64,000 bases of DNA from a virus, in IMG/VR virus record IMGVR_UViG_3300004369_000643, positions 1-64,000 of that record. One strand, 5' to 3'. The notes below the pieces were generated by a model, which saw nothing but the letters and a program-made list of their open reading frames with translations, made no database searches and had not been told where the DNA came from. Positions within the stretch are counted from its first letter, which is position 1. Every line of letters begins with the position of its first letter. Positions 5,684 to 16,822 of this stretch are shown here, in pieces. The position numbers and the translations under genes are program-made.

Positions 5684-6070
5684 TCAGTTCTTAGGCTGAG
5701 TGACCTTGACTGAGGCAACCTCGGTTGACTTGATGGCAGGGGCGATAGTCGCCTCATCCAACCAGCCAGCCTTGATAGCCTCGTCAATGAGGGCGAGAGT
5801 CGCCTCACGGCGAGTCAGCCTCTGGAACTGTCCCTGAGGAACAATGTCCTTGACGGTGGCGGTGTCCACCGAACGACGAGTCTGACGAACAACGGCGACC
5901 TTAGTGCCGTCGTCCAGTAGAACCGCATCGGTGTCCAGCGCACGGAAGGCATCCTCAGCCTCCTGCGCCTTCGCCTTCGCCTCCGCAAGAATGGCTCGGG
6001 CATCGACCACCGACTTGGCGAGCATCTGCTCAACCTTGCCGGTGTTGATGGTAGTAGTTGCTGTTTCCAT
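5684..6070 (-). CDS. Hypothetical Ala/Glu-rich coiled-coil protein, 128 aa
   Basis: ATG at 6070 (METATTTINTGKVEQML) with AAGGAGGGTCAC. Residues 12-50 form an Ala/Glu/Lys-rich amphipathic helix, followed by a KVAVVRQTRRSVDTATV beta segment and another helix. Monocistronic. Function unknown. Confidence 0.65.
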   Translation of the reverse strand: METATTTINTGKVEQMLAKSVVDARAILAEAKAKAQEAEDAFRALDTDAVLLDDGTKVAVVRQTRRSVDTATVKDIVPQGQFQRLTRREATLALIDEAIKAGWLDEATIAPAIKSTEVASVKVTQPKN

Positions 6071-6764: not shown

Positions 6765-6864
6765 CCGTAGGGACACCATTGAGGGTAAATAGGGCTAATG
6801 CCGACCCTCGGTGCGTCCCGCCTGTGCTGGAAGGGTCGAACAGTCCAGCATCAGCCAAAATAAT

Positions 6865-6929
6865 GGCTGGACTGTTTCGGGAATAATGGCTGGACTATTT
6901 CGGGAATAATGGCTGGACTGTTTCGGGGT
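6865..6929. repeat. Three tandem copies (23 bp) of the dispersed GGCTGGACTGTTTCGGG element
   Basis: Copies begin at 6865, 6888 and 6911, period 23 bp; the third extends to GGGGT. An inverted half copy (ACAGTCCAGC) is at 6840-6849. Further copies: 2232, 7755(inv), 8714(inv)/8738, 9133(inv)/9158, 9707(inv), 10517, 11516(inv), 12173(inv), 12932, 13283(inv). In the minus-strand sense the element often lies directly after an intrinsic terminator. Confidence 0.75.
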
Positions 6930-6936
6930 ACAACAA

Positions 6937-6964
6937 AGCCCCAACTCCTATTGGAGTCAGGGCT
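6937..6964 (-). terminator. Intrinsic terminator
   Basis: AGCCC..ACTCC-TATT-GGAGT..GGGCT stem, followed on the minus strand by TTTGTTGT. Ends the 7013-7240 transcript. Confidence 0.7.
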
Positions 6965-6972
6965 AGTTGTGG

Positions 6973-7013
6973 GGGGATTCTGTTGCCACGTTCCCCGAAC
7001 GCCGAGTCTGGCT
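6973..7013 (-). ncRNA. Conserved hairpin RNA motif, copy 1 (3' UTR)
   Basis: Minus strand: stem GGGGA/TCCCC closing loop ACGTGGCAACAGAA, preceded by a small CTCGGC hairpin; lies directly after the stop of the 75-aa gene. Loop is shared with four other copies whose stems differ but pair perfectly (see 7908, 8207, 9216, 15941). Confidence 0.6.
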
Positions 7014-7240
7014 CAGTAATCGCTGTCCCAGCGTTCGCCCGCATAGGCGGGGTCAAACCAACTAGGTGCGAAGGGGCTGTCAGGATAGTCCTGACGAATC
7101 CGCTCATCACGCTCCAGTCGGATGTCCCAGTGCCGGTCACACCGAGGGAACGATGTGCCGGAACCGCTGAGTGACATACGGTAAATCGTCTCGCCTGCGC
7201 AAGCGCCGTTACCGTTGTCCAAACAGTCGTCGTGAGTCAT
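7013..7240 (-). CDS. 75-aa Cys/His small protein, likely zinc-binding
   Basis: Start at ATG 7240 (MTHDDCLDNGNGACAGE) with AGGAGGTGAGT; an in-frame GTG at 7246 overlaps the SD. Cys6, Cys14 and the later FPRCDRHWDIRLERDE segment (Cys and His) resemble a small actinophage family with a split zinc site. Its 5' leader folds into a three-way junction (7267-7326) shared with the zinc-ribbon gene at 11620-11907, and its 3' UTR carries the conserved hairpin motif. Function unknown. Confidence 0.65.
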   Translation of the reverse strand: MTHDDCLDNGNGACAGETIYRMSLSGSGTSFPRCDRHWDIRLERDERIRQDYPDSPFAPSWFDPAYAGERWDSDY

Positions 7241-7266
7241 ACTCACCTCCTTTCAGAGTTTGATCG

Positions 7267-7326
7267 TCGGGAGTCCGATAGACTCTCACTATCGCCTGTC
7301 CTGATGGCGACTCCCGATTGCTTATG
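7267..7326 (-). promoter_or_regulatory. Structured 5' leader: three-way junction, copy 1
   Basis: Minus strand CATAAGCAA, then P1 TCGGGAGTC / GACTCCCGA (9 bp), P2 GCC/GGC, P3 GATAG / CTATC closing loop TGAGAGT, then CGA. The second copy (11930-11988) has the same order, the same flanks and P3 loop but entirely different, still complementary stems. Confidence 0.6.
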
Positions 7327-7331
7327 GGCAC

Positions 7332-7361
7332 AGTATGGCATAGGGGTGTGACAGCCGTCAA
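7332..7361 (-). promoter_or_regulatory. Leftward promoter
   Basis: TTGACG (7356-7361), 18 bp containing TGTCACACCCC, CATACT (7332-7337); feeds the structured leader and the 75-aa gene. Confidence 0.55.
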
Positions 7362-7559
7362 ATCGTTCACTCTAAGCCCGCCAGCAGTAGGTTTGGGGGC
7401 AATATGCTGCCCATACGGTAATAGTCGCTTAGAACGGCTCCCAGAGGGGTATAACGGGTATTCTCAGCCCGTCAGTCTGCGCCCTATTCTGCGGTGGCGT
7501 GGGTGACTGTCACACCCGTCTGGCATACTGGCATTATCACCTAGAGGAGAGGAGATAGC

Positions 7560-7700
7560 GTGATTAGTTTGACCGAATATCTACTACCCGATTGGGTGGC
7601 GGTGACCATGATGGTCGGTGCCAACCTAGTTCCCCTCGCACTCACAGTGCGGGTGTCGTGGATCTCACGCCGGTGCCAGTGTAAGCGGTGCCGGTGGTGA
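7560..7700 (+). CDS. 46-aa membrane microprotein with Cys-rich tail
   Basis: GTG at 7560 directly after GAGGAGAGGAGATAGC, a strong SD. Residues about 9-32 (DWVAVTMMVGANLVPLALTV within) form one membrane span, followed by a basic Cys-rich tail (RRCQCKRCRW). Followed by a long hairpin (7683-7743) that may end the transcript. Function unknown; the strong SD and membrane layout support it. Confidence 0.5.
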   Translation: MISLTEYLLPDWVAVTMMVGANLVPLALTVRVSWISRRCQCKRCRW

Positions 7701-7807
7701 CCACCACCGTTCGGGCGCACGCCCAGCCAGTCCCGAAAGTGGTGGCAACCTGAGGCAGTCCAGCCGATATTCGCCCGTGGCGGGGCTTTATGACCGTAGA
7801 AATGGTT

Positions 7808-7892
7808 AGATCCCCGCCAGAGAAGAGGGAGAGGGTTCTGACGGGGATCTAAATAGTTGGTTCCGGTAGGGGAGAACATTCCTACCGGAACC
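7808..7892. other. Two strong adjacent hairpins in non-coding DNA
   Basis: Hairpin 1: arms 7808-7821 / 7837-7850 (14 bp, one G-U pair). Hairpin 2: arms 7859-7870 / 7881-7892 (12 bp, perfect). No U-run follows either on either strand, so ordinary termination is doubtful. They sit downstream (minus sense) of the 53-aa gene and its conserved 3' hairpin. Confidence 0.65.
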
Positions 7893-7907
7893 TATGTCAT
7901 GTTAGTT

Positions 7908-7953
7908 GGGGGATTCTGGTGCCACGTTCCCCCGAACGCCGATTCTTAGTCGG
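7908..7953 (-). ncRNA. Conserved hairpin RNA motif, copy 2 (3' UTR)
   Basis: Stem GGGGGA/TCCCCC, loop ACGTGGCACCAGAA, preceded by the hairpin CCGACTAAGAATCGG (7939-7953). Follows the stop of the 53-aa gene by 14 nt. Confidence 0.6.
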
Positions 7954-7967
7954 TTATGACGCTAGTG

Positions 7968-8129
7968 TCAGAGCCACTCGAAGATATCGCCGTCTGCGAT
8001 TTCTGAGTAGTCCAGACCCTCGGCGTCGGCAAGAGCGTGCCAGAAATCATCTTCTGTCAACATCCCCCGACGCTCTACGGCGTCCCAATTCACGTGATCA
8101 TGCCACGTGTCTCGGTTGGAACTAGTCAT
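7968..8129 (-). CDS. 53-aa hypothetical protein
   Basis: ATG at 8129 after GAGGGGGTGACAAT. The product (MTSSNRDTWHDHVNWDAVER at the start) is acidic and helical, ending GDIFEWL. Too short for many gene finders but with SD, a plausible -10 (CATAAT near 8170-8175) and the conserved 3' hairpin motif behind it. Family unknown. Confidence 0.6.
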   Translation of the reverse strand: MTSSNRDTWHDHVNWDAVERRGMLTEDDFWHALADAEGLDYSEIADGDIFEWL

Positions 8130-8206
8130 ATTGTCACCCCCTCTCTGGTGTTGGTTGGTTTATCTATCATCATTATGCCATAAGGGTGTAACACCCCCCT
8201 TAGGAG

Positions 8207-8253
8207 CCGGTAGTTCGGTTGCCACGCCTACCGGAGCGCCGATGCTTAGTCGG
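8207..8253 (-). ncRNA. Conserved hairpin RNA motif, copy 3
   Basis: Stem CCGGTAG/CTACCGG, loop GCGTGGCAACCGAA, preceded by CCGACTAAGCATCGG. Part of the longer segment 8207-8365 that has a paralogue at 15941-16085. Confidence 0.6.
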
Positions 8254-8384
8254 GGATCTGAGTGGTATGTAGCCACTAGGCTACGGCGGTACCACAATTA
8301 CGATAATAATCAAGTGGCATCACCCCCTATCCGGTTCTTCGGGTTCATGTATTCATTGTTGCATACGGATGGCCCGCCGGTCAA
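8254..8384 (-). other. Short structured transcript with minimal reading frames (paralogue at 15987-16115)
   Basis: Behind a promoter (TTGACC 8379-8384, 18 bp, AACAAT 8355-8360). The minus strand then carries a 12-codon frame (MNPKNRIGGDAT), a 14-codon frame in the next phase (MPLDYYRNCGTAVA) and a hairpin GTAGCC-TAGT-GGCTAC, then the conserved motif. The paralogue has MKENRTGGDST, the same order and a hairpin GTAGCC/GGCTAC. I cannot tell leader peptides from chance frames. Confidence 0.4.
8355..8384 (-). promoter_or_regulatory. Leftward promoter with inverted flanks
   Basis: TTGACC, 18 bp, AACAAT; ATGGC/GCCAT arms bracket the -35. Confidence 0.5.
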
Positions 8385-8436
8385 ATCGTAGCCATAGTTC
8401 CTAGAGATAGGGGTATCTCTCGGAGAGATAGGTGAA

Positions 8437-8594
8437 TCGAACGTATGTTCGACGAACGTATGTTCGATGTTAGGTGACCTTAACACCGATAATTCCGATC
8501 AGATTAGTCGGGATATTAGGTGCGCCTAACATTGACAATCCCGATCAGATTAGTCGGGATATTAGGTGTCCCTAACATGGCGAACGCATGTTCG
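8437..8594. repeat. Palindrome array with three LexA-type dyads
   Basis: CGAAC-N4-GTTCG dyads at 8437-8452 (TCGAAC...GTTCGA), 8452-8467 and 8581-8594. Between them are TGTTAGGTGACCTTAACA (8468-8485) and a 46-bp direct repeat (units from 8491 and 8537), each with a CCGA...TCGG dyad and a TTAGG-N4-CCTAA dyad. The CGAAC-N4-GTTCG form matches the LexA box known from Gram-positive bacteria. No gene lies within. Confidence 0.7.
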
Positions 8595-8784
8595 ATTTCT
8601 TCGACGCTGGGGACACCATAGGTTATTTATGGAGGATATGGCGAAAGCGAGTGTGGGGGCGGGTGAGAGAGTCCCGAATGGTGAAGAAAGAAAAGGCTGC
8701 AGGCAGGGTCAAATAGTCCAGCAAATAAAAATACATTGGCTGGACTGTTTCGGGGTGAAACACGGGTGGTTGGGGCATGAAAAA

Positions 8785-8813
8785 GCCCCCCGACTCGGTT
8801 GAGCCGGAGGGCC
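8785..8813 (-). terminator. Intrinsic terminator
   Basis: Minus strand GGCCCTCCG...CGGGGGGC followed by TTTTTC. Confidence 0.75.
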
Positions 8814-8950
8814 TTCGCTATGGCGGCGGTACTGCCATGTACCATCACCCCTTTCGTGGTTGGTGCGAATGGTTGGTAGTCTTTCAATCGGCTCCCCCGC
8901 ACTTCCTGTGGCACTACCTGTGCTGGGTTCTGTAGCCGTATCTTTTATGT
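8785..8950 (-). ncRNA. Candidate short structured RNA
   Basis: From promoter 8957-8985 to the terminator at 8785 there is about 165 nt with no convincing gene. The minus strand contains CGGCT...AGCCG enclosing two small hairpins, GCAC-AGGTA-GTGC and CAC-AGGAA-GTG, then an SD-like AAAGGGG before an ATG whose frame runs straight through the terminator. A noncoding RNA, or a leader with a very short peptide, fits better than a protein gene. Confidence 0.4.
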
Positions 8951-8956
8951 ACCTTC

Positions 8957-8985
8957 ATACTATCGTTGGGGTGTGACAGTACCAA
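8957..8985 (-). promoter_or_regulatory. Leftward promoter, TGTTACA-heptamer class
   Basis: TTGGTA (8980-8985), 17 bp containing GTCACACCCC, TAGTAT (8957-8962). Two TGTTACA heptamers 11 bp apart (9000-9017) sit upstream. Confidence 0.6.
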
Positions 8986-8999
8986 CCTGCGGGTAGGGC

Positions 9000-9017
9000 T
9001 GTAACACGATTGTAACA
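9000..9017. repeat. Tandem heptamer TGTAACA-N4-TGTAACA
   Basis: Identical layouts at 9000-9017, 9596-9613, 15914-15931; one variant at 2117-2134. Three copies lie 14 bp upstream of the -35 of a similar leftward promoter, with heptamers one helical turn apart, as for an activator or repressor site. Confidence 0.6.
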
Positions 9018-9182
9018 TTCACAAAAATATCCAAAAAAGTTTGCAAAAAAAGGTTGACAAACACGGGCGGGCGGGAAAGTTCGCAAAAAGTGTCGCATTT
9101 ACGAACGATTCGTGCAGCGGCAGCACGGCGAGACAGTCCAGCCGCCAAGCAGCAACTGCTGGACTGTTTCAGGGTAAACAAA

Positions 9183-9209
9183 AACCCCTCAGGCCGTAGC
9201 CCAAGGGGT
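9183..9209 (-). terminator. Intrinsic terminator
   Basis: Minus strand ACCCCTTGGGC...GCCTGAGGGGT followed by TTTTG. Confidence 0.7.
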
Positions 9210-9215
9210 AATGTT

Positions 9216-9261
9216 GCTAAGTTTCTGTTGCCACCTACTTAGCGAGGCCGGAACTTATCCG
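9216..9261 (-). ncRNA. Conserved hairpin RNA motif, copy 4 (3' UTR)
   Basis: Stem GCTAAGT/ACTTAGC, loop AGGTGGCAACAGAA, preceded by CGGA-TAAG-TTCCG. Lies between the stop of the 82-aa gene and its terminator. Confidence 0.6.
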
Positions 9262-9265
9262 ATAA

Positions 9266-9514
9266 TCACCAGTCCAACTGGAACTCGGCCATGATCTCAG
9301 CCCGAGTCATAGTCTCGTCGGTAGCGTAGTTGACTACTGCGTAGTCATCATCAGCCATATCACCGAAACAAGGCCACAAGTAGCCAGCCACCATACGGTG
9401 CCCGTTGCTACTCCACCGGTCGAACCACTGTGCGGCTGCTTCCATGATAGAATCGCACTCAATGTCGATTCCACCCGAATAGCAATAACCGCCATTCAGC
9501 GTGTAGGTAATCAT
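9266..9514 (-). CDS. Hypothetical protein, 82 aa
   Basis: ATG at 9514 (MITYTLNGGYCYSGG) after AGAGGAGGTGAG. Alpha/beta small protein with a middle helix (MEAAAQWFDRWSSNGH). Monocistronic from promoter 9553-9581; its 3' UTR carries the conserved hairpin motif and a terminator. Family unknown. Confidence 0.65.
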   Translation of the reverse strand: MITYTLNGGYCYSGGIDIECDSIMEAAAQWFDRWSSNGHRMVAGYLWPCFGDMADDDYAVVNYATDETMTRAEIMAEFQLDW

Positions 9515-9552
9515 CTCACCTCCTCTTCAGTTGTCAATGAACTTCTACTGTC

Positions 9553-9581
9553 AGGATATCAACGGGGTGTGACAATCAAAA
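9553..9581 (-). promoter_or_regulatory. Leftward promoter, TGTTACA-heptamer class
   Basis: TTTTGA (9576-9581), 17 bp with GTCACACCCC, TATCCT (9553-9558); heptamers at 9596-9613. Confidence 0.55.
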
Positions 9582-9638
9582 CCTGCGTACACTGCTGTAA
9601 CACGATTGTAACATTTAGGGGTTGACAAAAAGTTGAGC

Positions 9639-9704
9639 GCAGCCAACTCGCAGCCAACTCGCAGCCAACTCGCAGCCAACTCGCAGCCAAGCGGCAGCAA
9701 CCTC
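9639..9704. repeat. 11-bp tandem repeat, six units
   Basis: GCAGCCAACTC repeated at 9639, 9650, 9661 and 9672 (perfect), then two degenerate units. Period equals one helical turn. Non-coding. Confidence 0.85.
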
Positions 9705-9759
9705 AGACAGTCCAGCCCCCCAACCGGCAACGGCGGGACTCGCTGGGGCACAAAGAAAA

Positions 9760-9785
9760 CCCCCACCCTCCGAAAAGAGTGGGGG
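9760..9785 (-). terminator. Intrinsic terminator
   Basis: CCCCCACTC...GAGGGTGGGGG followed on the minus strand by TTTTC; ends the 92-aa gene. Confidence 0.8.
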
Positions 9786-9791
9786 AGTTCT

Positions 9792-10070
9792 TCACCAGCA
9801 GGCGTTTTCGATGTAAGCCCGCAAGTTGTAGGCTCCATCGTCACCGCCGAATGTTTCCTCGCACCATTCACCGAGTACGCTAGCAACCGCCCAGTACGCA
9901 AAAGGAATAGAAGCCTCGCCCTTTTCGTAATCCCAGACGTTGATAACTTCGCTAGGTTCGATACATTCAGGCATCGTTAGTTCGATGTACGCACCGCCGA
10001 AGTATTCGGCTCGCACGACATACGCTCCAACTCGCCATTCTGCGGTTATCACGTTTTCTATTGTTTCCAT
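9792..10070 (-). CDS. Hypothetical protein, 92 aa
   Basis: ATG at 10070 (METIENVITAEWRVG) after GAGGAGGTGAACA. Beta-rich N-terminal half (AYVVRAEYFGGAYIELTM) and acidic helical C-terminus. Monocistronic between promoter 10099-10128 and the terminator at 9760. No family recognised. Confidence 0.65.
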   Translation of the reverse strand: METIENVITAEWRVGAYVVRAEYFGGAYIELTMPECIEPSEVINVWDYEKGEASIPFAYWAVASVLGEWCEETFGGDDGAYNLRAYIENACW

Positions 10071-10098
10071 TGTTCACCTCCTCAGGTGGTCTACCACC

Positions 10099-10128
10099 AC
10101 GATAGCACATCGGTGTACCAGATGTCAA
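10099..10128 (-). promoter_or_regulatory. Leftward promoter
   Basis: TTGACA (10123-10128), 18 bp, TATCGT (10099-10104); divergent from an extended -10 TATAGT at 10156-10161 that probably serves the rightward 44-aa gene. Confidence 0.65.
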
Positions 10129-10188
10129 ACTTTAGATAATGTCACACCCATATGCTATAGTGAGGTTATCAGAAGAAATGGGGTGATT

Positions 10189-10323
10189 ATGACAACGTAC
10201 ACAGTTTGGGTTGGGGGTATCCCCGACGTTGAGCGAGTAACCTACGCCAAAGCCGTCGAAGTTTCTGACGGTTGGATTGCTGATGGATACGACGACGTGG
10301 TTATCGAAAAAGAAAGCGAGTAA
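10189..10323 (+). CDS. 44-aa small protein with a duplicated 3' end
   Basis: ATG at 10189 after GGGGTGATT. The product starts MTTYTVWVGGIPDVE and ends DDVVIEKESE, a pattern I associate with small actinophage proteins. Its stop codon lies inside the second copy of a perfect 40-bp direct repeat (10233-10272 and 10316-10355) that is out of phase with the first, so the present C-terminus or the DNA after it may result from a duplication. Confidence 0.6.
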   Translation: MTTYTVWVGGIPDVERVTYAKAVEVSDGWIADGYDDVVIEKESE

Positions 10324-10355
10324 CCTACGCCAAAGCCGTCGAAGTTTCTGACGGT
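10233..10355. repeat. Perfect 40-bp direct repeat
   Basis: 10233-10272 and 10316-10355 are identical (both begin GCGAGTAACCTACGCC). Spacing 83 bp, so copies are in different phases. The second copy contains the stop of the 44-aa gene. Confidence 0.9.
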
Positions 10356-10543
10356 GAGTTACGGTGTAGAACCAACAACCACAACTTCAACAAGCACTAC
10401 CGTTTTGGCACGCTCTACGATACCGAAATGGCCACAACAACAACAGTAGAGCCTCATTATGAAGGCGGTCAGGGCTTTTTCGTGCCGTCGCACAGTCCCG
10501 ACATGGGGTTGGGGTCGGCTGGACTGTTTTGGGGTAGAAAGAA
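10356..10543. other. Non-coding or decayed stretch
   Basis: After the second repeat copy the third phase stays open for tens of codons, possibly a remnant of a gene, but no start or SD is visible. It ends with a GGCTGGACTGTTTTGGGGT element (10517-10535). Confidence 0.4.
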
Positions 10544-10571
10544 ACCCCCAGCCCGAAAGAGGGGAGGGGGT
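10544..10571 (-). terminator. Intrinsic terminator
   Basis: Minus strand ACCCCC...GGGGGT followed by TTCTTTC. Confidence 0.65.
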
Positions 10572-10594
10572 GAGACTGAGGGTTTCTTAGATTT

Positions 10595-10780
10595 TTAGTA
10601 TTTCACTTCTACGTCGTAAGTGTTTTCCAGATACTTGACTACTTCGTCAAGTGTCATTGTGGGTAAAACTTCCTCGCTAACGTATGTGTTATTTACGCTG
10701 AGGGTTACTTCTGTAGGGTGTCCGTCGATAGTGTGTACGACGGCGTGCGTTACGTTATTATGTGTTTCTCTTCCTAGCAT
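10595..10780 (-). CDS. Hypothetical protein, 61 aa
   Basis: Start at ATG 10780 (MLGRETHNNVTHAVV) after CAGGAGATAAG; the longer frame upstream crosses the promoter. Beta-rich with a regular VTLSVNNTYV strand pattern and a helical end (MTLDEVVKYLENTYD). Monocistronic. Unknown function. Confidence 0.65.
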   Translation of the reverse strand: MLGRETHNNVTHAVVHTIDGHPTEVTLSVNNTYVSEEVLPTMTLDEVVKYLENTYDVEVKY

Positions 10781-10853
10781 CTTATCTCCTGTTCTGCTAT
10801 CACTTCCTTTCGTGAAGTGTCTCGAAGGATACTTTCCTTCTTTGGTTGCTCCC

Positions 10854-10882
10854 AGTATACCAGAGTCGGTACATAAAAGCAA
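10854..10882 (-). promoter_or_regulatory. Leftward promoter fused to the preceding terminator
   Basis: TTGCTT (10877-10882), 17 bp, TATACT (10854-10859). The -35 is the U-tract of the terminator at 10881-10910. Confidence 0.65.
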
Positions 10883-10910
10883 CCCCTACCGGCGGATACC
10901 AGTAGGGGTT
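10881..10910 (-). terminator. Intrinsic terminator overlapping a -35
   Basis: 12-bp stem AACCCCTACTGG/CCGGTAGGGGTT (one G-U) followed by GCTTTT on the minus strand. Confidence 0.75.
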
Positions 10911-10923
10911 GTGGATAACTTGT

Positions 10924-11073
10924 TTATCGTCGGTCTAGTTGTTTGGCTACTTTGAGTGCCTGCTCCCTTGTGGGGAACGTGGCTCGTACTCCGTTACCGT
11001 TAGCCGTGTCGATTACTTGCCATCTGCTGCCTGTAGGCGAGAGGCGTATGTCGTATCGCTCTTTTTCCACCAT
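10924..11073 (-). CDS. DUF2188-like small protein, 49 aa
   Basis: Start at ATG 11073 (MVEKERYDIRLSPTGS) after AAAGGAAACGT. The layout, two short strands with a central W (SRWQVID) then a helix with EQALKVAKQLDRR, resembles DUF2188, a small domain of unknown role found across bacteria and phages. Monocistronic between promoter 11102-11130 and the terminator at 10881. Confidence 0.6.
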   Translation of the reverse strand: MVEKERYDIRLSPTGSRWQVIDTANGNGVRATFPTREQALKVAKQLDRR

Positions 11074-11101
11074 ACGTTTCCTTTCTGTATTGGTTGCTAT
11101 C

Positions 11102-11130
11102 ATCGTACCACGTCGATTATCTCTTGTCAA
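11102..11130 (-). promoter_or_regulatory. Leftward promoter of a divergent pair
   Basis: TTGACA (11125-11130), 17 bp, TACGAT (11102-11107). With the rightward -35 it forms the dyad TTGTCAAGT...ACTTGACAA. Confidence 0.75.
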
Positions 11131-11144
11131 GTTATTCGATTGAC

Positions 11145-11173
11145 TTGACAACGGCGAGTGTATCGGGTAAGAT
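11145..11173 (+). promoter_or_regulatory. Rightward promoter of a divergent pair
   Basis: TTGACA (11145-11150), 17 bp, TAAGAT (11168-11173); feeds the 76-aa gene. Confidence 0.75.
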
Positions 11174-11222
11174 AGGTAACGAGATAGAGAAAGGCTCTAT
11201 CCATAAGGAAAGGTATCATCAC

Positions 11223-11453
11223 ATGATGAGAGGACAAGTAAAGTTTATCCAAGTTACCGGCAAGGTTGTCGAAGTTTGGTACGAGTCAATGACTGGCGAC
11301 AGTTCCGACTCTATCATTGACCGGCACGAATGGCACAGCCATCGTCGGGCGATGGAAGTTGCGGCTCATATTGCTGCTCCTCACGGTTGCGTTGTTCATA
11401 ACGCATGGGAAAATCGCCCTATCCTCACGCTGAATAACGACTCACTCGTGTGA
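11223..11453 (+). CDS. Hypothetical protein, 76 aa
   Basis: ATG at 11223 (MMRGQVKFIQVTGKVV) after AAGGAAAGGTATCATCAC; a second ATG at 11226 is an alternative. Strand-rich start, then a His-rich helix (HEWHSHRRAMEVAAH). Rightward single gene between the promoter 11145-11173 and the bidirectional terminator 11481-11510. Family unknown. Confidence 0.65.
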   Translation: MMRGQVKFIQVTGKVVEVWYESMTGDSSDSIIDRHEWHSHRRAMEVAAHIAAPHGCVVHNAWENRPILTLNNDSLV

Positions 11454-11480
11454 TGAAACCCCTCTCCGGTTCTCGGTAGC

Positions 11481-11510
11481 AAAACCCCCAGCCTTCGGGT
11501 TGGGGGTTTT
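11481..11510. terminator. Bidirectional intrinsic terminator
   Basis: AAAACCCCCAGCC-TTC-GGGTTGGGGGTTTT. Confidence 0.85.
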
Positions 11511-11574
11511 GCTTTACCCCGAAACAGTCCAGCCCTACCCACTTCCCCCTCGGGGCTTGTTTGGGGTACGAAAA

Positions 11575-11612
11575 AGCCCCCACTCTCAGGACACTTTTTG
11601 AGAGTGGGGGCT
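11575..11612 (-). terminator. Intrinsic terminator
   Basis: AGCCCCCACTCTCA...TGAGAGTGGGGGCT with TTTTTC on the minus strand. Confidence 0.85.
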
Positions 11613-11619
11613 TAGACTG

Positions 11620-11907
11620 TCAGCAATCGCAGTCGTAACCGACCGTGCCACAATCGGGACACTTGCTGATACAAGGAACGCACCAGCCCCAGTATTCGGG
11701 GTCAAGTACGTCGGAGAACCGGAACTCGTCGGCGGTAAATGACTCGCCACAGTCGTGGCAACCGAACTTGACGACTAGGTTATTCACCACGCCTGCTCGT
11801 TCGGCTTGCCTAACAGCCACCGCCCATACCGTACGGTAGATGGGGGAGAGACTGCTCCGGTAGGACACCCGATAGTCGGGTGCGTTGTCAATGTTACTGT
11901 AGAACAT
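11620..11907 (-). CDS. Zinc-ribbon small protein, 95 aa
   Basis: Start at ATG 11907 (MFYSNIDNAPDYRVS) after AAGGAAGGAACA. The C-terminal half has three Cys pairs (GCHDCGESF near 48-56, WCVPCISKCPDCG near 78-90) and ends YDCDC, a double zinc-ribbon layout as in many small phage proteins that bind nucleic acid. Its leader is a three-way-junction RNA (11930-11988) also found in front of the Cys-rich 7013-7240 gene, hinting at common post-transcriptional control. Confidence 0.65.
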   Translation of the reverse strand: MFYSNIDNAPDYRVSYRSSLSPIYRTVWAVAVRQAERAGVVNNLVVKFGCHDCGESFTADEFRFSDVLDPEYWGWCVPCISKCPDCGTVGYDCDC

Positions 11908-11929
11908 TGTTCCTTCCTTCCTATGTTCG

Positions 11930-11988
11930 GTGGGGCTTAGCGGACTCTCACCGCTACCGGGCCTTCTGGCAAGCCCCACTTGCTTATG
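11930..11988 (-). promoter_or_regulatory. Structured 5' leader: three-way junction, copy 2
   Basis: Minus strand CATAAGCAA, P1 GTGGGGCTT / AAGCCCCAC, P2 GCC/GGC region, P3 AGCGG / CCGCT closing loop TGAGAGT, then CGA. Compare 7267-7326: stems differ at most positions yet pair fully in both. Confidence 0.6.
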
Positions 11989-11993
11989 CCTTC

Positions 11994-12022
11994 ATACTAC
12001 CAGCGGGGTGTGCCAATACCAA
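11994..12022 (-). promoter_or_regulatory. Leftward promoter
   Basis: TTGGTA (12017-12022), 17 bp with GCACACCCC, TAGTAT (11994-11999). Confidence 0.6.
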
Positions 12023-12229
12023 CGTCGGAAACATTCTGTTCACATTCGTTCACATTCTGGAAACAATCGGAAAATGCGAAAGTTTCGCAAAAGTACGGCT
12101 GCGAGAAAAACCAGAACGGCTGCGAAAACCAGAGAAACAAGATAAAATGCGAAACATTTTACCTGTACCAACACCCCGAAACAGTCCAGCCGCAGCAGGC
12201 GGCAGTCGGGACTCATTGAGGTACAAAGA

Positions 12230-12257
12230 AACCCCCAGCCCGTCTGGACTGAGGGTT
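12230..12257 (-). terminator. Intrinsic terminator
   Basis: 12-bp stem (two G-U) followed on the minus strand by TCTTTG. Confidence 0.7.
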
Positions 12258-12261
12258 CTTC

Positions 12262-12384
12262 TCACTTCTTGTCCCGATACTTCTGCGCTCCTCGCTTGGG
12301 GAAGTGTCTCCCTGATGCAACAAACCGTGATGCTGTTGCGCTGATGGGGCGACGGATAGGCTCGTGACCTTGATTACCTGTCAT
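12262..12384 (-). CDS. 40-aa basic small protein
   Basis: ATG at 12384 (MTGNQGHEPIRRPISAT) after AAAGGAAAACAT. Basic C-terminus (GRHFPKRGAQKYRDKK). Own promoter (12409-12437) and terminator. Unknown. Confidence 0.55.
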   Translation of the reverse strand: MTGNQGHEPIRRPISATASRFVASGRHFPKRGAQKYRDKK

Positions 12385-12408
12385 ATGTTTTCCTTTCTGT
12401 CTACCACC

Positions 12409-12437
12409 AGTATAACCCACCGCCTCCGGTTTCGCAA
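12409..12437 (-). promoter_or_regulatory. Leftward promoter
   Basis: TTGCGA (12432-12437), 17 bp, TATACT (12409-12414). Confidence 0.65.
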
Positions 12438-12494
12438 CTTGCGTAGCCATACTGTAACCTTGTCTCAAGTATTTACACTGTCACACCCATCTGG

Positions 12495-12500
12495 TACACT
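12495..12500 (+). promoter_or_regulatory. Leaderless-type -10 of the 54-aa gene
   Basis: TACACT, 6 nt before ATG 12507; -35 TTTACA 17 bp upstream (12472-12477). Confidence 0.65.
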
Positions 12501-12506
12501 ACAAGC

Positions 12507-12671
12507 ATGAAAGACAACGGACACAAATGGTACGCAGACGACACCGACGTTTACTGCAAACAATGCGGGTGCTACGCCGGTGGTCGATACGCCTCCGAAA
12601 CATGCGAAGCCGTGTTGTATTCTCACCACGCTAGTGCTATACTGGAAGCAGATAGAAAGGATAGGGTATGA
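12507..12671 (+). CDS. 54-aa small protein with Cys motif, leaderless
   Basis: ATG 12507 lies 6 nt after the -10 and lacks an SD. The product (MKDNGHKWYADDTDVYCKQC at the start) has a CKQCGC cluster and a later Cys, as in small zinc-binding phage proteins. It overlaps the next gene by ATGA (12668). An internal promoter (12615-12643) serves the downstream gene separately. Confidence 0.6.
   Translation: MKDNGHKWYADDTDVYCKQCGCYAGGRYASETCEAVLYSHHASAILEADRKDRV
12615..12643 (+). promoter_or_regulatory. Internal rightward promoter
   Basis: TTGTAT (12615-12620), 17 bp, TATACT (12638-12643) with TGC before the -10. Confidence 0.6.
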
Positions 12672-12871
12672 AACAAACCACCCATCGTCCCCAACGGGTA
12701 ACCGAACTTCCTCTCGGCATTTCGGTTTCCTCCGTTCACTACGACTTAGAGTATGACGACATGAAGTCTCGGCTCAACGAGACATGCGTGTTCTTTCCCG
12801 ACGGGAACTCTCAAGTGCGTGGAACTTACGACGACCATGACAAGGTAGTCAACGAACTAATCCACGCTTGA
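12668..12871 (+). CDS. Hypothetical protein, 67 aa
   Basis: ATG 12668 in an ATGA overlap with the 54-aa gene, SD AGAAAGGATAGGG. Mixed strand/helix protein (MKQTTHRPQRVTELPLG at the start). Second gene of a rightward pair ended by the strong terminator at 12893-12924. Family unknown. Confidence 0.65.
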   Translation: MKQTTHRPQRVTELPLGISVSSVHYDLEYDDMKSRLNETCVFFPDGNSQVRGTYDDHDKVVNELIHA

Positions 12872-12892
12872 GTTGCTTGGATAGTGGCAAAG

Positions 12893-12924
12893 CCCTCGGC
12901 ACCTACGGGTGTCGGGGGTTTTTT
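12893..12924. terminator. Intrinsic terminator
   Basis: CCCTCGGCACC-TAC-GGGTGTCGGGGG followed by TTTTTT on the plus strand; works convergently with the metallohydrolase gene, whose 3' end it overlaps. Confidence 0.85.
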
Positions 12925-13475
12925 GCTTCCCGCTGGACTGTTTCGGGGTGGATACGAACTTTGTTTCGCAGCATTGCATCGTGGAGATCAACGAATGTTT
13001 CAGATCCTAACACATTATTCACGATTGTCAAGTAGATCCTTGCGAACTCTTTGCCGTGTGCCGAGAAGTGTTGTCCGTTTTCGGCATCGCACCAACAGCA
13101 AATATGAGTTAGTTCGTGGATCAAAGTGAGATGGTTTCTGCTCCAAAGGGGTAAAGTGATGGTTGAGTAGCAACTTTCTGCGTGACGGCGACGATATCCG
13201 GGTCGAAGTTTGAGTCCCCGCCGCCGATCCCCGTGATAAAGGTAGATCAGCCGTTTGTTCGGGCGGTGTTCTTGGGGGTCAGACAGTCCAGCCGCTGCAG
13301 CGGAACCCGTCAAATACGCAGCGGTTCTAGGAAAGTTCGATAAAAACCACGAAGATTTGAGTATTTCTACCAGAAACTTCCAGCATTCGTGCAGCGAAAG
13401 ACGTTCATATTCGTCAATAAGTTCCCACTCCGCCCGGTAAAGCCGGGTTCGCTGATAGTCTCGCTCAAGTTTCAT
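12903..13475 (-). CDS. TIGR04338-like zinc metallohydrolase, 190 aa
   Basis: Residues about 119-126 read LIHELTHI, an HExxH zinc site, followed some 15 residues later by AHGKEFARIYL, which supplies the third ligand His. This order and the C-terminal helix match the actinobacterial/actinophage TIGR04338 putative metallohydrolases, whose substrate is unknown; SprT-like is an alternative. ATG 13475 overlaps the stop of the membrane-protein gene (ATGA). The last codons run into the terminator and into a copy of the dispersed 19-bp element (12932-12949, encoding HPETVQ), so the C-terminal tail may be of recent origin. Confidence 0.7.
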   Translation of the reverse strand: MKLERDYQRTRLYRAEWELIDEYERLSLHECWKFLVEILKSSWFLSNFPRTAAYLTGSAAAAGLSDPQEHRPNKRLIYLYHGDRRRGLKLRPGYRRRHAESCYSTITLPLWSRNHLTLIHELTHICCWCDAENGQHFSAHGKEFARIYLTIVNNVLGSETFVDLHDAMLRNKVRIHPETVQREAKNPRHP

Positions 13476-13735
13476 CCGAACCAGCGTCTGAATAAGTCAT
13501 ACTTCTTTGGAATCCATCGAAAAAGATGGCTTGTCAAGTAAAACCAGAACAGTATTAGTGATGGTCGTCCCATTTTTGATGAGGAAAACTTGTAAAAAGC
13601 GGTACTCATGGTAGAATGTTTCCCGCTTCTCAACGCTATCAGATCATAAGCAGCAATGTATGCGGCAAGTAGCAGCCACGCCCAACCACCAAAGTCTCTT
13701 GATTTACCGTTAGCACGTCCCGTCGATGGTATCAT
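13472..13735 (-). CDS. DUF7427-like membrane protein, 87 aa
   Basis: Two predicted membrane segments (GWAWLLLAAYIAAYDLIA near 17-34 and RPSLILFWFYLTSHLF near 57-72) separated by a polar loop, then a charged tail. This resembles the DUF7427 actinophage membrane proteins, function unknown. ATG 13735 lies 6 nt after TAATAT (13742-13747) and has no SD, so a leaderless transcript is likely. Overlaps the metallohydrolase gene by ATGA. Confidence 0.65.
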   Translation of the reverse strand: MIPSTGRANGKSRDFGGWAWLLLAAYIAAYDLIALRSGKHSTMSTAFYKFSSSKMGRPSLILFWFYLTSHLFRWIPKKYDLFRRWFG

Positions 13736-13777
13736 AGTAGTATATTACCCCAAACATAGAACGGAGCCTTTCACCCC

Positions 13778-13948
13778 GTGAGATACAACAACAATACTTC
13801 ATCTGGTTATGTCCGACATCCGAAGAAAGCCTGCCAACATTCGCAGTATGTTGAGGAACGGAAGGAGTATTCGTGGCTTGCTCGCCTCGCTGAATGGGAG
13901 CGAAAGATACCAGATAGCGTGAAAAACCCACCCCGAAGGGTGGGCTAA
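13778..13948 (+). CDS. Possible 56-aa basic protein, GTG start
   Basis: An open frame from GTG 13778 to TAA 13946-13948 encodes a basic helical peptide (EERKEYSWLARLAEWERK near 26-43). The amino-acid composition looks coding, but the SD (GGAG) is far and the 3' end overlaps a terminator hairpin that serves the opposite strand. Kept at moderate confidence. Confidence 0.4.
   Translation: MRYNNNTSSGYVRHPKKACQHSQYVEERKEYSWLARLAEWERKIPDSVKNPPRRVG
13927..13945 (-). terminator. Intrinsic terminator
   Basis: CCCACCC-TTCG-GGGTGGG followed by TTTTTC on the minus strand; ends the LysM gene. Confidence 0.75.
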
Positions 13949-13965
13949 TCACGGGAGGTGAACTC

Positions 13966-14220
13966 TCAGGGGAGAGTGATGGTGTCACCGATGGTGAGGT
14001 TTGCTGTACCGTAGGTGTCCACGATGTCGCTGGTGGCTGAACCTGTATGTCCTGTACAGTACCTAGAGGCTATGCCCCATGCTGTGTCGCCGGGGTGAAC
14101 TCTCACAGTGATTGCTTCACACTCGTAGGCTGTTGCCTTGTCTAGTGCCACATCGGCTAGTCCTGCAAGGGTTAGTGTGCCGAGTGCGGTAGCGGTTATG
14201 GTTGCTATTACTTTCTTCAT
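13966..14220 (-). CDS. Secreted LysM-domain protein, 84 aa, leaderless
   Basis: Residues 1-33 form a signal peptide (MKKVIATITATALGTLTLAG at the start, Ala-rich end). The rest is one LysM module: VRVHPGDTAWGIASRYC near 46-62 and a closing LTIGDTITLP. LysM binds peptidoglycan N-acetylglucosamine; there is no catalytic domain, so a role in wall binding, superinfection exclusion or lysis assistance is possible. ATG 14220 lies 6 nt after TATACT (14227-14232). A lone exported LysM protein is unusual for a phage early arm. Confidence 0.75.
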   Translation of the reverse strand: MKKVIATITATALGTLTLAGLADVALDKATAYECEAITVRVHPGDTAWGIASRYCTGHTGSATSDIVDTYGTANLTIGDTITLP

Positions 14221-14226
14221 GGTGCC

Positions 14227-14256
14227 AGTATACCCACATCGCATAGTGTTTGTCAA
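14227..14256 (-). promoter_or_regulatory. Leaderless-type promoter of the LysM gene
   Basis: TTGACA (14251-14256), 18 bp, TATACT (14227-14232), 6 nt, ATG. Confidence 0.8.
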
Positions 14257-14302
14257 GTATTTTGCTTGATTTAGTGCAGGTGTCTGAATATCTCAGAGAT
14301 TA

Positions 14303-14440
14303 TCAGGGTCGTCCTTGACCTCGATACTTCTTGCCGTAGTTCTTCGACTGCTTCTGGCGTGACGTTCCCGCCTTGGAGTGAACGCCTTTCCGCTTCACTT
14401 TCGATGTCGATGCTTTCTTCGTATCAACCGCTCGTGCCAT
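14303..14440 (-). CDS. 45-aa basic protein
   Basis: ATG 14440 (MARAVDTKKASTSKVKR) inside the end of the upstream gene. Almost every third residue is Lys or Arg; the ending SKNYGKKYRGQGRP is a recurrent signature of tiny basic phage/bacterial proteins of unknown role. Probably RNA or DNA binding. Coupled to the 64-aa gene. Confidence 0.6.
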   Translation of the reverse strand: MARAVDTKKASTSKVKRKGVHSKAGTSRQKQSKNYGKKYRGQGRP

Positions 14441-14618
14441 TCTTCTTTGCCTCTCGTTCTAGTCGGCGCTCTTCCGCCTGTTCGATTTCTGATTTTGTTG
14501 ACATTCTATGACCGTTTTGACACCAGACAGTAGCACCACCCAAAGTTCCAATAGTGTATTCACACTTCAGGCAGTAGTAGTTAGTTAGTCCATCTCTAGT
14601 TTTGTGTGTAAGTTGCAT
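14424..14618 (-). CDS. 64-aa zinc-finger-like protein
   Basis: ATG 14618 (MQLTHKTRDGLTNYYC) lies 7 nt after TAGGAT. CLKCEYT and WCQNGH provide CxxC and Cys/His ligands for one zinc, followed by a charged helix. Overlaps the 45-aa gene by 17 bp. The upstream in-frame ATG at 14627 overlaps the -10 and is less likely. Confidence 0.6.
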   Translation of the reverse strand: MQLTHKTRDGLTNYYCLKCEYTIGTLGGATVWCQNGHRMSTKSEIEQAEERRLEREAKKNGTSG

Positions 14619-14625
14619 GAGAGTC

Positions 14626-14654
14626 ATCCTATCGAATACGGCGGGACTTGTCAA
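14626..14654 (-). promoter_or_regulatory. Leaderless-type promoter
   Basis: TTGACA (14649-14654), 17 bp, TAGGAT (14626-14631), 7 nt, ATG. Confidence 0.7.
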
Positions 14655-14725
14655 GAGTGTCAGTAATCGGTATTCTACCACCAAATATGTACGAATAGTG
14701 AAAAGTATTAGTGTAACCTAGTTTT

Positions 14726-14890
14726 ATGACTACGATGCAACGTTTACAAGCAGCAACTTTTGTTGCTTTTTGCTGCGAACCTGATATAGTGTGGCGAGAT
14801 ATTGCCGAACTACTGTGCTTGGGATATGAGCCGGTCGATTTCGATGTGTCCCAACTGGTCAGCGAGTCCCGCAGCGGGATACTCGCCTGA
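14726..14890 (+). CDS. Possible 54-aa protein
   Basis: ATG 14726 (MTTMQRLQAATFVAFCC) 6 nt after TAACCT; no SD and only a weak -35. The frame shows plausible amphipathic helices (VWRDIAELLCLGYEP). Its last codons cross a GAGTCCCGCAGCGGGATACTC palindrome. Moderate confidence. Confidence 0.45.
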   Translation: MTTMQRLQAATFVAFCCEPDIVWRDIAELLCLGYEPVDFDVSQLVSESRSGILA

Positions 14891-14991
14891 CTTCTCGCAG
14901 CCGCTGCCGCAGCCAAACCGTGCTGCTCGCAGCCGAACTCGGTGAAAACTTCCAACTTTTTGATGTTTCTTCGCTGGGGTGTTGGTACAGG

Positions 14992-15020
14992 TTGCGAAAC
15001 CTGCCCCCTGCTGATATACT
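14992..15020 (+). promoter_or_regulatory. Leaderless-type promoter
   Basis: TTGCGA (14992-14997), 17 bp, TATACT (15015-15020), 6 nt, ATG 15027. Confidence 0.75.
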
Positions 15021-15026
15021 GGACTC

Positions 15027-15305
15027 ATGATGAAACACTATTACATAGGCATCCGCATGATGGCTGACCGTATCGGTCTTGACCCTTGGGATGTTCACCT
15101 GCCTACGTTGCGCACGTTCGTTCGTGACGCTGAGGGTGCACCCACTTCACGGTTCTGGTTCGGTTCCCCTTGCCGGTTTATCCGATCGGTGGACATCGCC
15201 GTTCACGTTTGGTTGCCCGATGCACTCATGGAGCGCCACCCTATGCTAGCGTGCTACCTGCGCACCACTAGCCCCCGATGGGGTAAGGCATGGAGGTCGT
15301 GGTAA
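15027..15305 (+). CDS. Hypothetical protein, 92 aa, leaderless
   Basis: ATG 15027 (MMKHYYIGIRMMADRIG) 6 nt after the -10, no SD. Arg/Trp-rich, with a possible HTH-sized helical centre, but I recognise no domain. Rightward, followed 53 nt later by the zinc-ribbon gene, which has its own promoter. Confidence 0.6.
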   Translation: MMKHYYIGIRMMADRIGLDPWDVHLPTLRTFVRDAEGAPTSRFWFGSPCRFIRSVDIAVHVWLPDALMERHPMLACYLRTTSPRWGKAWRSW

Positions 15306-15309
15306 GACG

Positions 15310-15338
15310 TTGCGTTTTGCCACGACACCTGCTATACT
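15310..15338 (+). promoter_or_regulatory. Rightward promoter
   Basis: TTGCGT (15310-15315), 17 bp, TATACT (15333-15338) with TGC before the -10. Confidence 0.7.
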
Positions 15339-15358
15339 GGAAAGTGAAAGGAGATGCG

Positions 15359-15529
15359 ATGACCGCATACGACAACTGGAAAACTACGAACCCCGACTTG
15401 GAGTACGACGAGTGCCCCTCATGCGGGGAGGGCGTAGTCGAAGGTGACCGCTACGAGTGGTGGTGTTCAGAGTCCTGCGGGTATGGGGGAGACAACTTCC
15501 CTGAGCCTGACGACTACTACTACGAGTGA
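15359..15529 (+). CDS. 56-aa zinc-ribbon protein
   Basis: ATG 15359 (MTAYDNWKTTNPDLEYD) after AAAGGAGATGCG. DECPSCGEG and WWCSESCGYG form a four-Cys ribbon; the tail is acidic and Tyr-rich. Ends at a strong terminator. Role unknown. Confidence 0.65.
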   Translation: MTAYDNWKTTNPDLEYDECPSCGEGVVEGDRYEWWCSESCGYGGDNFPEPDDYYYE

Positions 15530-15536
15530 GGAACAG

Positions 15537-15562
15537 CCCCCGATGCCTGATGGTGTCGGGGG
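15537..15562 (+). terminator. Intrinsic terminator
   Basis: CCCCCGATGCC-TGAT-GGTGTCGGGGG then TTTCTTC. Confidence 0.8.
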
Positions 15563-15676
15563 TTTCTTCGTGCCCCAGTAAGCCCCGCCCGATGCGACGC
15601 ATTCGCCGCTTCGCCGCTCGCTCCGCCCCGTTTCGGGACTGGTTGATGGTGACTCGCCTGTGTGCGGACAGCAAAG

Positions 15677-15700
15677 AACCCCGCCCTTTCGGGTCGGGGT
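15677..15700 (-). terminator. Intrinsic terminator
   Basis: ACCCCGACCCG-AA-AGGGCGGGGTT then CTTTG on the minus strand. Confidence 0.7.
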
Positions 15701-15706
15701 CGATGC

Positions 15707-15841
15707 TCACTCTGCGTTGATCAGAGCGAAGGGATCTGTGCGATTCGCCGTGTCAACGAAGACGATGGTCTCGCACTCGTAGCACTCGCCCTCATCGTTG
15801 AGGTAGTCTTCGAATGCTCCGCAGTTGATGCAGTTGCTCAT
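15707..15841 (-). CDS. 44-aa zinc-ribbon protein
   Basis: ATG 15841 (MSNCINCGAFEDYLND) after AAAGGAAAGAACAG. CINCG and ECYECET supply two CxxC pairs. Driven by the heptamer-class promoter 15871-15899 and ended by 15677-15700. Family unknown. Confidence 0.6.
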   Translation of the reverse strand: MSNCINCGAFEDYLNDEGECYECETIVFVDTANRTDPFALINAE

Positions 15842-15870
15842 CTGTTCTTTCCTTTCTTCTTGATACTGTC

Positions 15871-15899
15871 ATAGTATCAGCGAGGTGTGTCGATCACAA
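15871..15899 (-). promoter_or_regulatory. Leftward promoter, TGTTACA-heptamer class
   Basis: TTGTGA (15894-15899), 17 bp with ACACACCTC, TACTAT (15871-15876); heptamers at 15914-15931. Confidence 0.6.
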
Positions 15900-15940
15900 C
15901 CTGTCTCGGTCGATGTAACACGACTGTAACAAAGTGGGTT

Positions 15941-15986
15941 GACCGGTTCTGTTGCCACGCTCCGGTCAGCGCCGACTCTCAGTCGG
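15941..15986 (-). ncRNA. Conserved hairpin RNA motif, copy 5
   Basis: Stem GACCGG/CCGGTC, loop AGCGTGGCAACAGAA, preceded by CCGACT-GAG-AGTCGG. Confidence 0.6.
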
Positions 15987-16115
15987 GGGTGGTGAGGTGC
16001 TGTAGCCTCACGGCTACGGCGGCTCCACGATTATGATGATCATCATCAAGTGGAATCACCTCCTGTCCGGTTCTCTTTCATGACTTCATCTTACCGTTCC
16101 CCCCACGTTCGACAA
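15987..16115 (-). other. Short structured transcript, paralogue of 8254-8384
   Basis: Promoter TTGTCG (16110-16115), 16 bp, TAAGAT (16088-16093). Minus strand then has an 11-codon frame MKENRTGGDST and a 26-codon frame, hairpin GTAGCC-GTGA-GGCTAC, and the conserved motif 15941-15986. Order and sequence parallel the 8.2-8.4 kb segment. Confidence 0.4.
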
Positions 16116-16277
16116 CCTGTGCCGACCGATTTTGTGTCTCTAGTAGAGATACCCCCTATCTCTGATAGATATGGGGCGGCTCACAGCAGGAAGGCACGGC
16201 ACTCGCCGTGCTACTCGCCTGTCGGCGGGCGAACCGACCGAGTGTAGATCGGCACCCCTCATGTCAAGTCGAAGCAA

Positions 16278-16670
16278 TCGAACACATGTTCGATCAGAGC
16301 CGACCTCACCCGACCGAACACATGTTCGATCCGACCGAAACCCGACCGAACTAGTCGGGAATCAAACCCGACCAACCTAGTCAACAATCAAAAGCCGACC
16401 AACTAGGTCAACAATCAAACCCGACTGAACTAGTCGGGAATCGAAACCCGACCAAACCAGTCAACAATCAAAAGCCGACCAACTAGGTCAACAATAAAAG
16501 CCGACCAGAACAGTCGGGAATCAAAGCCGACCAGAACAGTCGGGAATCAAAGCCGACCAAACCGGTCGGGAATCAATCGAACACACGTTCGATCCGAACG
16601 AGAACGTGAACACAATCACAAAGCGAACACATGTTCGATCAACAACACCAACAATCGAACAAACGTTCGA
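16278..16670. repeat. Five LexA-type dyads flanking a tandem repeat
   Basis: CGAAC-N4-GTTCG at 16278-16293, 16315-16328, 16577-16592, 16624-16637 and 16655-16670; the first, third and fifth have full TCGAAC/GTTCGA arms. Two lie left and three right of the tandem repeat. Confidence 0.75.
16341..16577. repeat. Nine-unit 26-27 bp tandem repeat
   Basis: Units start at 16341, 16367, 16394, 16420, 16447, 16474, 16500, 16526 and 16552. Consensus (C/G)CCGACC..AC.(A/G)GTC(GG/AA)(G/C)AATCAAA. Several units are dyads (CCCGACT-N5-AGTCGGG at 16420; CCGACC-N5-GGTCGG at 16553). Confidence 0.85.
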
Positions 16671-16822
16671 TCAACCAAAGCCGACCCCAATGTTACAGTT
16701 TGATGACAAACTTGACAAAGGCAAAGCGATGTGCTGCAGGGCCTCGGGACTTTTCGAGGGTGACTTCATAGCGGGGGCGTTGGTGTGACATATTTTTAGG
16801 TGTGGTTGTGGTTTGTGTTATC

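Follow-up and report, generated by a model that had tools for sequence, protein, structure and literature searches.

A free-standing form of the alphaproteobacterial tmRNA-tail pseudoknot behind stop codons of phage genes

We analysed bases 1–64,000 (hereafter, the window) of the 102,594-base virus record IMGVR_UViG_3300004369_000643, which represents a tailed phage with a portal protein nearest to those of actinophages, e.g., Brevibacterium phage Cantare (42% identity over 69% of the protein). A small-gene region of the window carries five copies of an RNA element, all on the minus strand, at the places where a preliminary description based on the letters alone had reported a hairpin motif. 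The five copies and their differing, pairing outer stems were indeed present. The simple hairpin, however, was replaced by a pseudoknot after covariation in a further stem was noticed.

Each copy is ordered as a short hairpin (P0, typically CCGA..UCGG), the 5' strand of stem S1, 0–2 nucleotides (nt), the 5' strand of stem S2, the 3' strand of S1, loop 3 (UGGCAACAGAA) and the 3' strand of S2. The bases beside the loop (ACG, GCG or AGG) pair with CGU, CGC or CCU just downstream of the P0 hairpin, giving a 3-base-pair (bp) S1 and three helices per copy, while S2 has 5–7 bp that differ in each of the five copies and are paired in each. As S1 and S2 are interlocked, the element is an H-type pseudoknot stacked on a hairpin rather than a plain hairpin, a structure that we regard as near certain. 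The loop had been described as invariant and preceded by a variable "N(C/G)"; its 11 bases are fixed apart from two copies with one change, but the "N(C/G)" is half of S1.

Copy 1 (6973–7016) has P0 at 7016–7012/7006–7002 (CUGAG/CUCGG, which holds the UGA of the gene ahead of it), S1 at 7001–6999/6991–6989, S2 at 6996–6992/6977–6973 and loop 3 at 6988–6978. In copy 2 (7908–7953) the P0 hairpin is followed by S1 CGU/ACG, S2 GGGGGA/UCCCCC and loop 3 at 7924–7914, and in copy 3 (8207–8253) by S1 CGC/GCG, S2 CCGGUAG/CUACCGG and loop 3 at 8224–8214. Copy 4 (9216–9262) combines a P0 hairpin with S1 CCU/AGG, both strands of which are altered relative to the other copies, S2 GCUAAGU/ACUUAGC and loop 3 at 9233–9223, and copy 5 (15941–15986) has P0 CCGAC/GUCGG, S1 CGC(U)/(A)GCG, S2 GACCGG/CCGGUC and loop 3 at 15957–15947. 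Loop 3 is exactly UGGCAACAGAA in three of the five copies, with a single A-to-C change in the other two (at 7914 and 8214).

A scanner demanding the pseudoknot form returned only these five in the window. They scored 48–67 bits (E values of 2e-18 to 1e-12, rough because the calibration was short) against covariance model R1, which was built from a set that includes them, and the next match in the window reached 11.5 bits. A second model, R2, found the same five and no others in the whole record. The covariance-model scores and the shuffles described below rule out a chance origin of the five copies; a loop match on the plus strand at 11755 lacks the stems and was set aside as chance.

The proposal that this is a selected RNA structure with strong covariation was borne out by alignments and shuffles. 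An alignment of 24 sequences, including the window copies, had 93.9% of its cells paired and 10 of 14 pairs changed on both sides, and none of 500 shuffles reached the observed values on any measure. This set had been picked partly by pairing, so the test was redone with patterns in which just the loop and part of P0 were fixed. At least 118 stretches were found in the first IMG/VR pattern scan, and patterns leaving S1 and S2 free matched more than 140 viral stretches. Among 118 distinct copies, S1 was fully paired in 103 (shuffled mean 25.5, maximum 39) and S2, taken as at least 4 bp with one or two junction bases allowed, in 78 (shuffled mean 10.3, maximum 18), counts that are not readable as probabilities because related copies are not independent events. 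The S1 pairs included CGC/GCG, AGG/CCU, AGU/ACU, GGC/GCC, AGC/GCU, GGU/ACC and others, and in four copies of the first set with CGG in the P0 loop S1 was seen by eye to be CGC/GCG. A model-fitted alignment of 78 copies, biased towards its own model, was 92.7% paired with a covariation score of 0.686 versus 0.167. Loop 3 was identical in 40 of 45 copies of the first set, which had been collected with patterns biased towards the exact loop.

In the window, three copies (loop ends at 6978, 7914 and 9223) lie behind ordinary genes as had been reported, and the other two (8214 and 15947) behind short frames; all of these genes and frames are on the minus strand. Copy 1 ends a small gene at 7013–7240 (PHROG 6230, unknown function), with the UGA within P0. 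A 53-amino-acid (aa) gene at 7968–8129, which ends in SEIADGDIFEWL* and has homologues in 39 viral contigs, stops 17 nt before the P0 of copy 2, and an 82-aa gene at 9266–9514 stops 6 nt before that of copy 4. The putative frame before copy 3 (8281–8313, (L)IIIVIVVPP*) has its UAG in the hairpin GUAGCC-UAGU-GGCUAC, and the one before copy 5 (16014–16049, (L)MMIIIIVEPP*) in GUAGCC-GUGA-GGCUAC, both as read from the sequence. Terminator-like hairpins follow copy 1 after 8 nt (6937–6964) and copy 4 after 6 nt (9184–9209), and a long hairpin (GGUUCCGGUAGG..CCUACCGGAACC; 7859–7892) follows copy 2 after 15 nt, all on the minus strand. Copies 1, 2 and 4 close single-gene units composed of a promoter-like repeat, the gene, the pseudoknot and a hairpin. 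The 23-nt repeat (family D5) lies at 8171–8193 on the minus strand, after copy 3 and ahead of the gene at 8129–7968; its minus-strand sisters at 7331–7353, 8956–8978 and 9552–9574 precede neighbouring small genes and a minigene and mark the single-gene units. This repeat ahead of small genes is probably a phage promoter.

Several other features were observed. Strong ribosome-binding sites are followed by very short frames with PP* or PPP* at the end, namely MAVPPP* and MSVPPP* besides the two frames given above, at 8818–8838, 8281–8313 and 16014–16049 of the window (all minus strand) and near 5850–5880 (plus strand) of another viral locus (L243). MAVPPP* has a promoter-like repeat on one side and a terminator-like hairpin on the other, and these frames are possible ribosome-stalling minigenes. 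Behind terminators, AATAATGGCTGGACTGTTTCGGG repeats (three in tandem at 6859–6927) and inverted partners occur at 6825–6927, 8698–8769 and 9151–9188; repeats of this type make up families D2, D6 and D7. Arrays of short palindromes (CCCGACTRGTTYGGTCGGG, CGAACATRYGTTCG, TTAGGTGNNCCTAA) at 8400–8603 and 16250–16700 (minus strand) may be operator sites preceding copies 3 and 5. A Mom-like DNA modification protein (PHROG 1384) is encoded at 18706–19587 (minus strand).

The loop had been thought to belong to no named motif; it was found in the 3' tail of the permuted (two-piece) transfer-messenger RNA (tmRNA) of alphaproteobacteria (Rfam RF01849, alpha_tmRNA), a ribosome-rescue RNA which ends in the same pseudoknot. 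Many matches of the first scan were permuted tmRNAs by ARAGORN and Rfam, with the pseudoknot right behind the stop codon of the tag (e.g., ANESYALAA*). The RF01849 consensus ends in GGUUCGGAGgcACCuGGCAACAGAAacCucC and has the same order of parts: a hairpin with a stop codon, S1, a short L1, S2 and loop 3 UGGCAACAGAA. When Rfam was scanned without restriction, the 3' end of RF01849 aligned to copy 2 of the window (18.5 bits, E value 0.007), and it also matched three other loci with free-standing copies at 21–24 bits. The comparison with Rfam that had been recommended thus gave an alignment to the 3' end of this family but no gathering match in the window, the free-standing copies (18–24 bits) falling below the gathering cut-off of 50 bits. 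A tmRNA hidden in the window was ruled out, as neither ARAGORN nor Rfam found one there. Unlike RF01849, the free-standing copies have no tRNA-like domain, tag frame or acceptor piece and lie behind ordinary protein genes; without the tRNA-like domain and the tag they are not tmRNAs but have one module in common with them. Permuted tmRNA genes on viral contigs carry the same pseudoknot but are complete tmRNA genes, and of the loci that supplied the 118 free-standing copies just one also has a tmRNA. In viral permuted tmRNAs (loci L010, L014, L018, L060 and L091) a promoter-like sequence comes immediately after the tail pseudoknot; in L018 it reads TTGACA..TATAAT. No description of the free-standing mRNA form was found in the open-access literature.

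Copies outside this genome were found behind stop codons in more than 100 other viral sequences. The carriers are viral contigs of low to high GC content, mostly with one copy per genome; five occur in this phage and four in a relative whose portal is 67% identical. A search of actinophages had been proposed, but the element was not found in the searchable actinophage isolates, including Cantare, the nearest isolate by portal protein, and occurs instead in uncultured viral contigs of varied GC content. No cultured phage had a megablast match to the region. Searching the consensus sequences by blastn, which is blunt for this element because the stems vary, against 50,697 isolate records returned Caulobacter phages (one of them CcrPW) and weak matches. 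The two weak matches that were inspected, in Microbacterium phage Cece and Vibrio phage SJ1, lacked the loop and were chance, and a match in a Curtobacterium plasmid was too weak to be used. Cellular genomes of 84,980 species gave one pattern match, on a contig that also carries an endolysin gene, in a scan that covered one P0/S1 form only and was blind to others; model R2 found the element in 1 of 64 genomes from the phylum of that match, on the same contig. The 97 upstream genes sort into 63 groups, and the element thus behaves as a movable cassette. The commonest upstream gene encodes a DUF2828/DUF7788 (vWA-like) protein (loci L291, L312, L334, L371, L385 and others); this gene often carries the pseudoknot, its stop codon then lying in the P0 loop, and a U-tract often follows the pseudoknot closely.

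The element lies directly behind an open reading frame (ORF) in 94 of 108 testable copies, compared with 18.5 expected for random positions on the same strand, and the first set gave a similar picture (41 of 46 versus 10.35 expected). These and the spacing statistics are based on mechanical reading frames (ORFs of at least 40 codons), and the viral records are often fragments. A T-tailed hairpin was found within 100 nt downstream of 14% of copies and 4% of control stops, whereas a start codon of a next gene within 30 nt was rarer behind the copies (1.7% versus 12%). Homologues of the copy-2 gene that run straight into another gene are without the pseudoknot. Judged from these patterns, the element leans to the ends of predicted transcription units, before a U-tract, a terminator hairpin or the next promoter.

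These observations suggest that phages reuse the tmRNA-tail fold to seal the ends of their messages. We give about an even chance to the element being a cis-acting 3'-end module of phage mRNAs, i.e., a compact cap that would halt 3'-to-5' exonucleases before the stop codon is eroded and would sometimes serve as a terminator stem. Loop 3 would probably line the groove of the stacked P0 and S1, and exonucleases such as PNPase and RNase R would stall at the pseudoknot while trimming the message. The halt would be placed just behind the terminating ribosome, the stop codon would stay intact and no non-stop message would form; in low-GC phages the module could double as the stem of an intrinsic terminator. 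The two-piece tmRNA would share this requirement, since the tag stop of its coding half is followed by a free 3' end, and we favour the cap because tmRNA and the phage messages have in common a stop codon that has to be kept intact near a free RNA 3' end. Several points weigh against it. Copies 1 and 4 have their own terminator hairpin downstream, already able to shield the 3' end, and the U-tract is absent from the high-GC copies (0 of 31). Eleven near-invariant loop bases exceed the needs of a mere roadblock, perhaps hinting at a binding partner. With one copy in most phages, the element is no general device for all of their genes, and the spacing from the stop codon could equally reflect contact with the terminating ribosome.

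Such a contact is the main rival to the cap, though we consider it rather unlikely. The pseudoknot would touch the 30S subunit or ribosomal protein S1 at the mRNA entry side while a ribosome stands on the stop codon, and would alter termination, recycling or re-initiation, the tmRNA tail doing the same at the end of the tag. The stop codon lies 15–18 nt upstream of P0 in 31 copies, a preferred spacing that roughly matches the front edge of a ribosome terminating there, and the near-invariant loop would also fit a contact site. The tmRNA hairpin H5 carries a stop codon, H5 and pseudoknot PK2 contact proteins S2 and S3 on the 30S surface, and protein S1 binds PK2 most strongly (PMC3968760). However, the main role of PK2–4 is in folding and maturation, not tagging, and the extra pseudoknots are largely interchangeable (PMC3968760). 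The stop codon is inside P0 in two further classes of copies, at +1 in the 5' strand (12 copies) and at +5 in the P0 loop (18 copies), where the ribosome must melt P0, and the bias to transcript ends is not what a ribosome contact predicts.

Somewhat less probable still is joint regulation of a set of messages, each marked by the element as a binding site for an RNA-binding protein of the phage or host. A loop held nearly constant between freely varying stems would suit it, as would five copies behind unrelated genes in one genome and the many unrelated upstream genes elsewhere, the commonest of which encodes the DUF2828/DUF7788 protein, possibly an RNA binder. Yet most phages have one copy, no companion gene common to all carriers was identified, and the same fold ends tmRNA. 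The pseudoknots of T4/T2 gene 32 mRNA bind the gene's own product; they are likewise H-type with a very short L1 over an S2 of 6–7 bp, but lie in the 5' leader, whereas the phage element lies behind the stop codon.

That the element is mainly an intrinsic terminator stem in pseudoknot form appears improbable. A U-tract straight after S2 in 19 of 41 low-GC copies (46%, versus 8% in the background) is in its favour, but none was found in the 31 high-GC copies or behind the five window copies, which lack the G+C stem followed by a U-tract of an intrinsic terminator. Copies 1 and 4 have separate terminators, several tmRNA copies are followed by promoter-like sequence and not by U-tracts, and the conserved loop would be left unexplained.

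A stimulator of stop-codon readthrough or frameshifting is very unlikely. Retroviral readthrough pseudoknots lie a few nt behind a stop codon and have sequence-specific loops, and the phage pseudoknot resembles them in being near the stop (7–11 nt past it in the classes with the stop inside P0), but no fixed or conserved frame follows. Loop 3 has no constant frame relative to the gene (46/25/23 in one count and 17/12/11 in another), extensions span 0–110 codons and each of the three stop codons occurs; the varied frame and stop codons argue against readthrough. Least probable of all is an antitermination element or riboswitch directed at the terminator or gene downstream. Several copies do lie just upstream of terminator-like hairpins, but the position is tied to the preceding stop and not to the following gene, and a promoter-like sequence or U-tract follows many of the copies.

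A broader possibility, which we put forward tentatively, is a stop-coupled RNA module common to phage messages and alphaproteobacterial tmRNA: phages may have spread the tmRNA tail as a cassette, or the tail may derive from a phage element, and the invariant loop would be the recognition site of a factor acting at the ends of reading frames. One of the tmRNA pseudoknots stands alone as a cassette, its loop unchanged, behind the stop codons of unrelated phage genes, which suggests an independent function that can be separated from trans-translation. The free-standing element is a simple system in which the function of the tmRNA-tail pseudoknot can be tested, and, at about 46 nt, it may also provide a natural message-protecting part for 3' ends.

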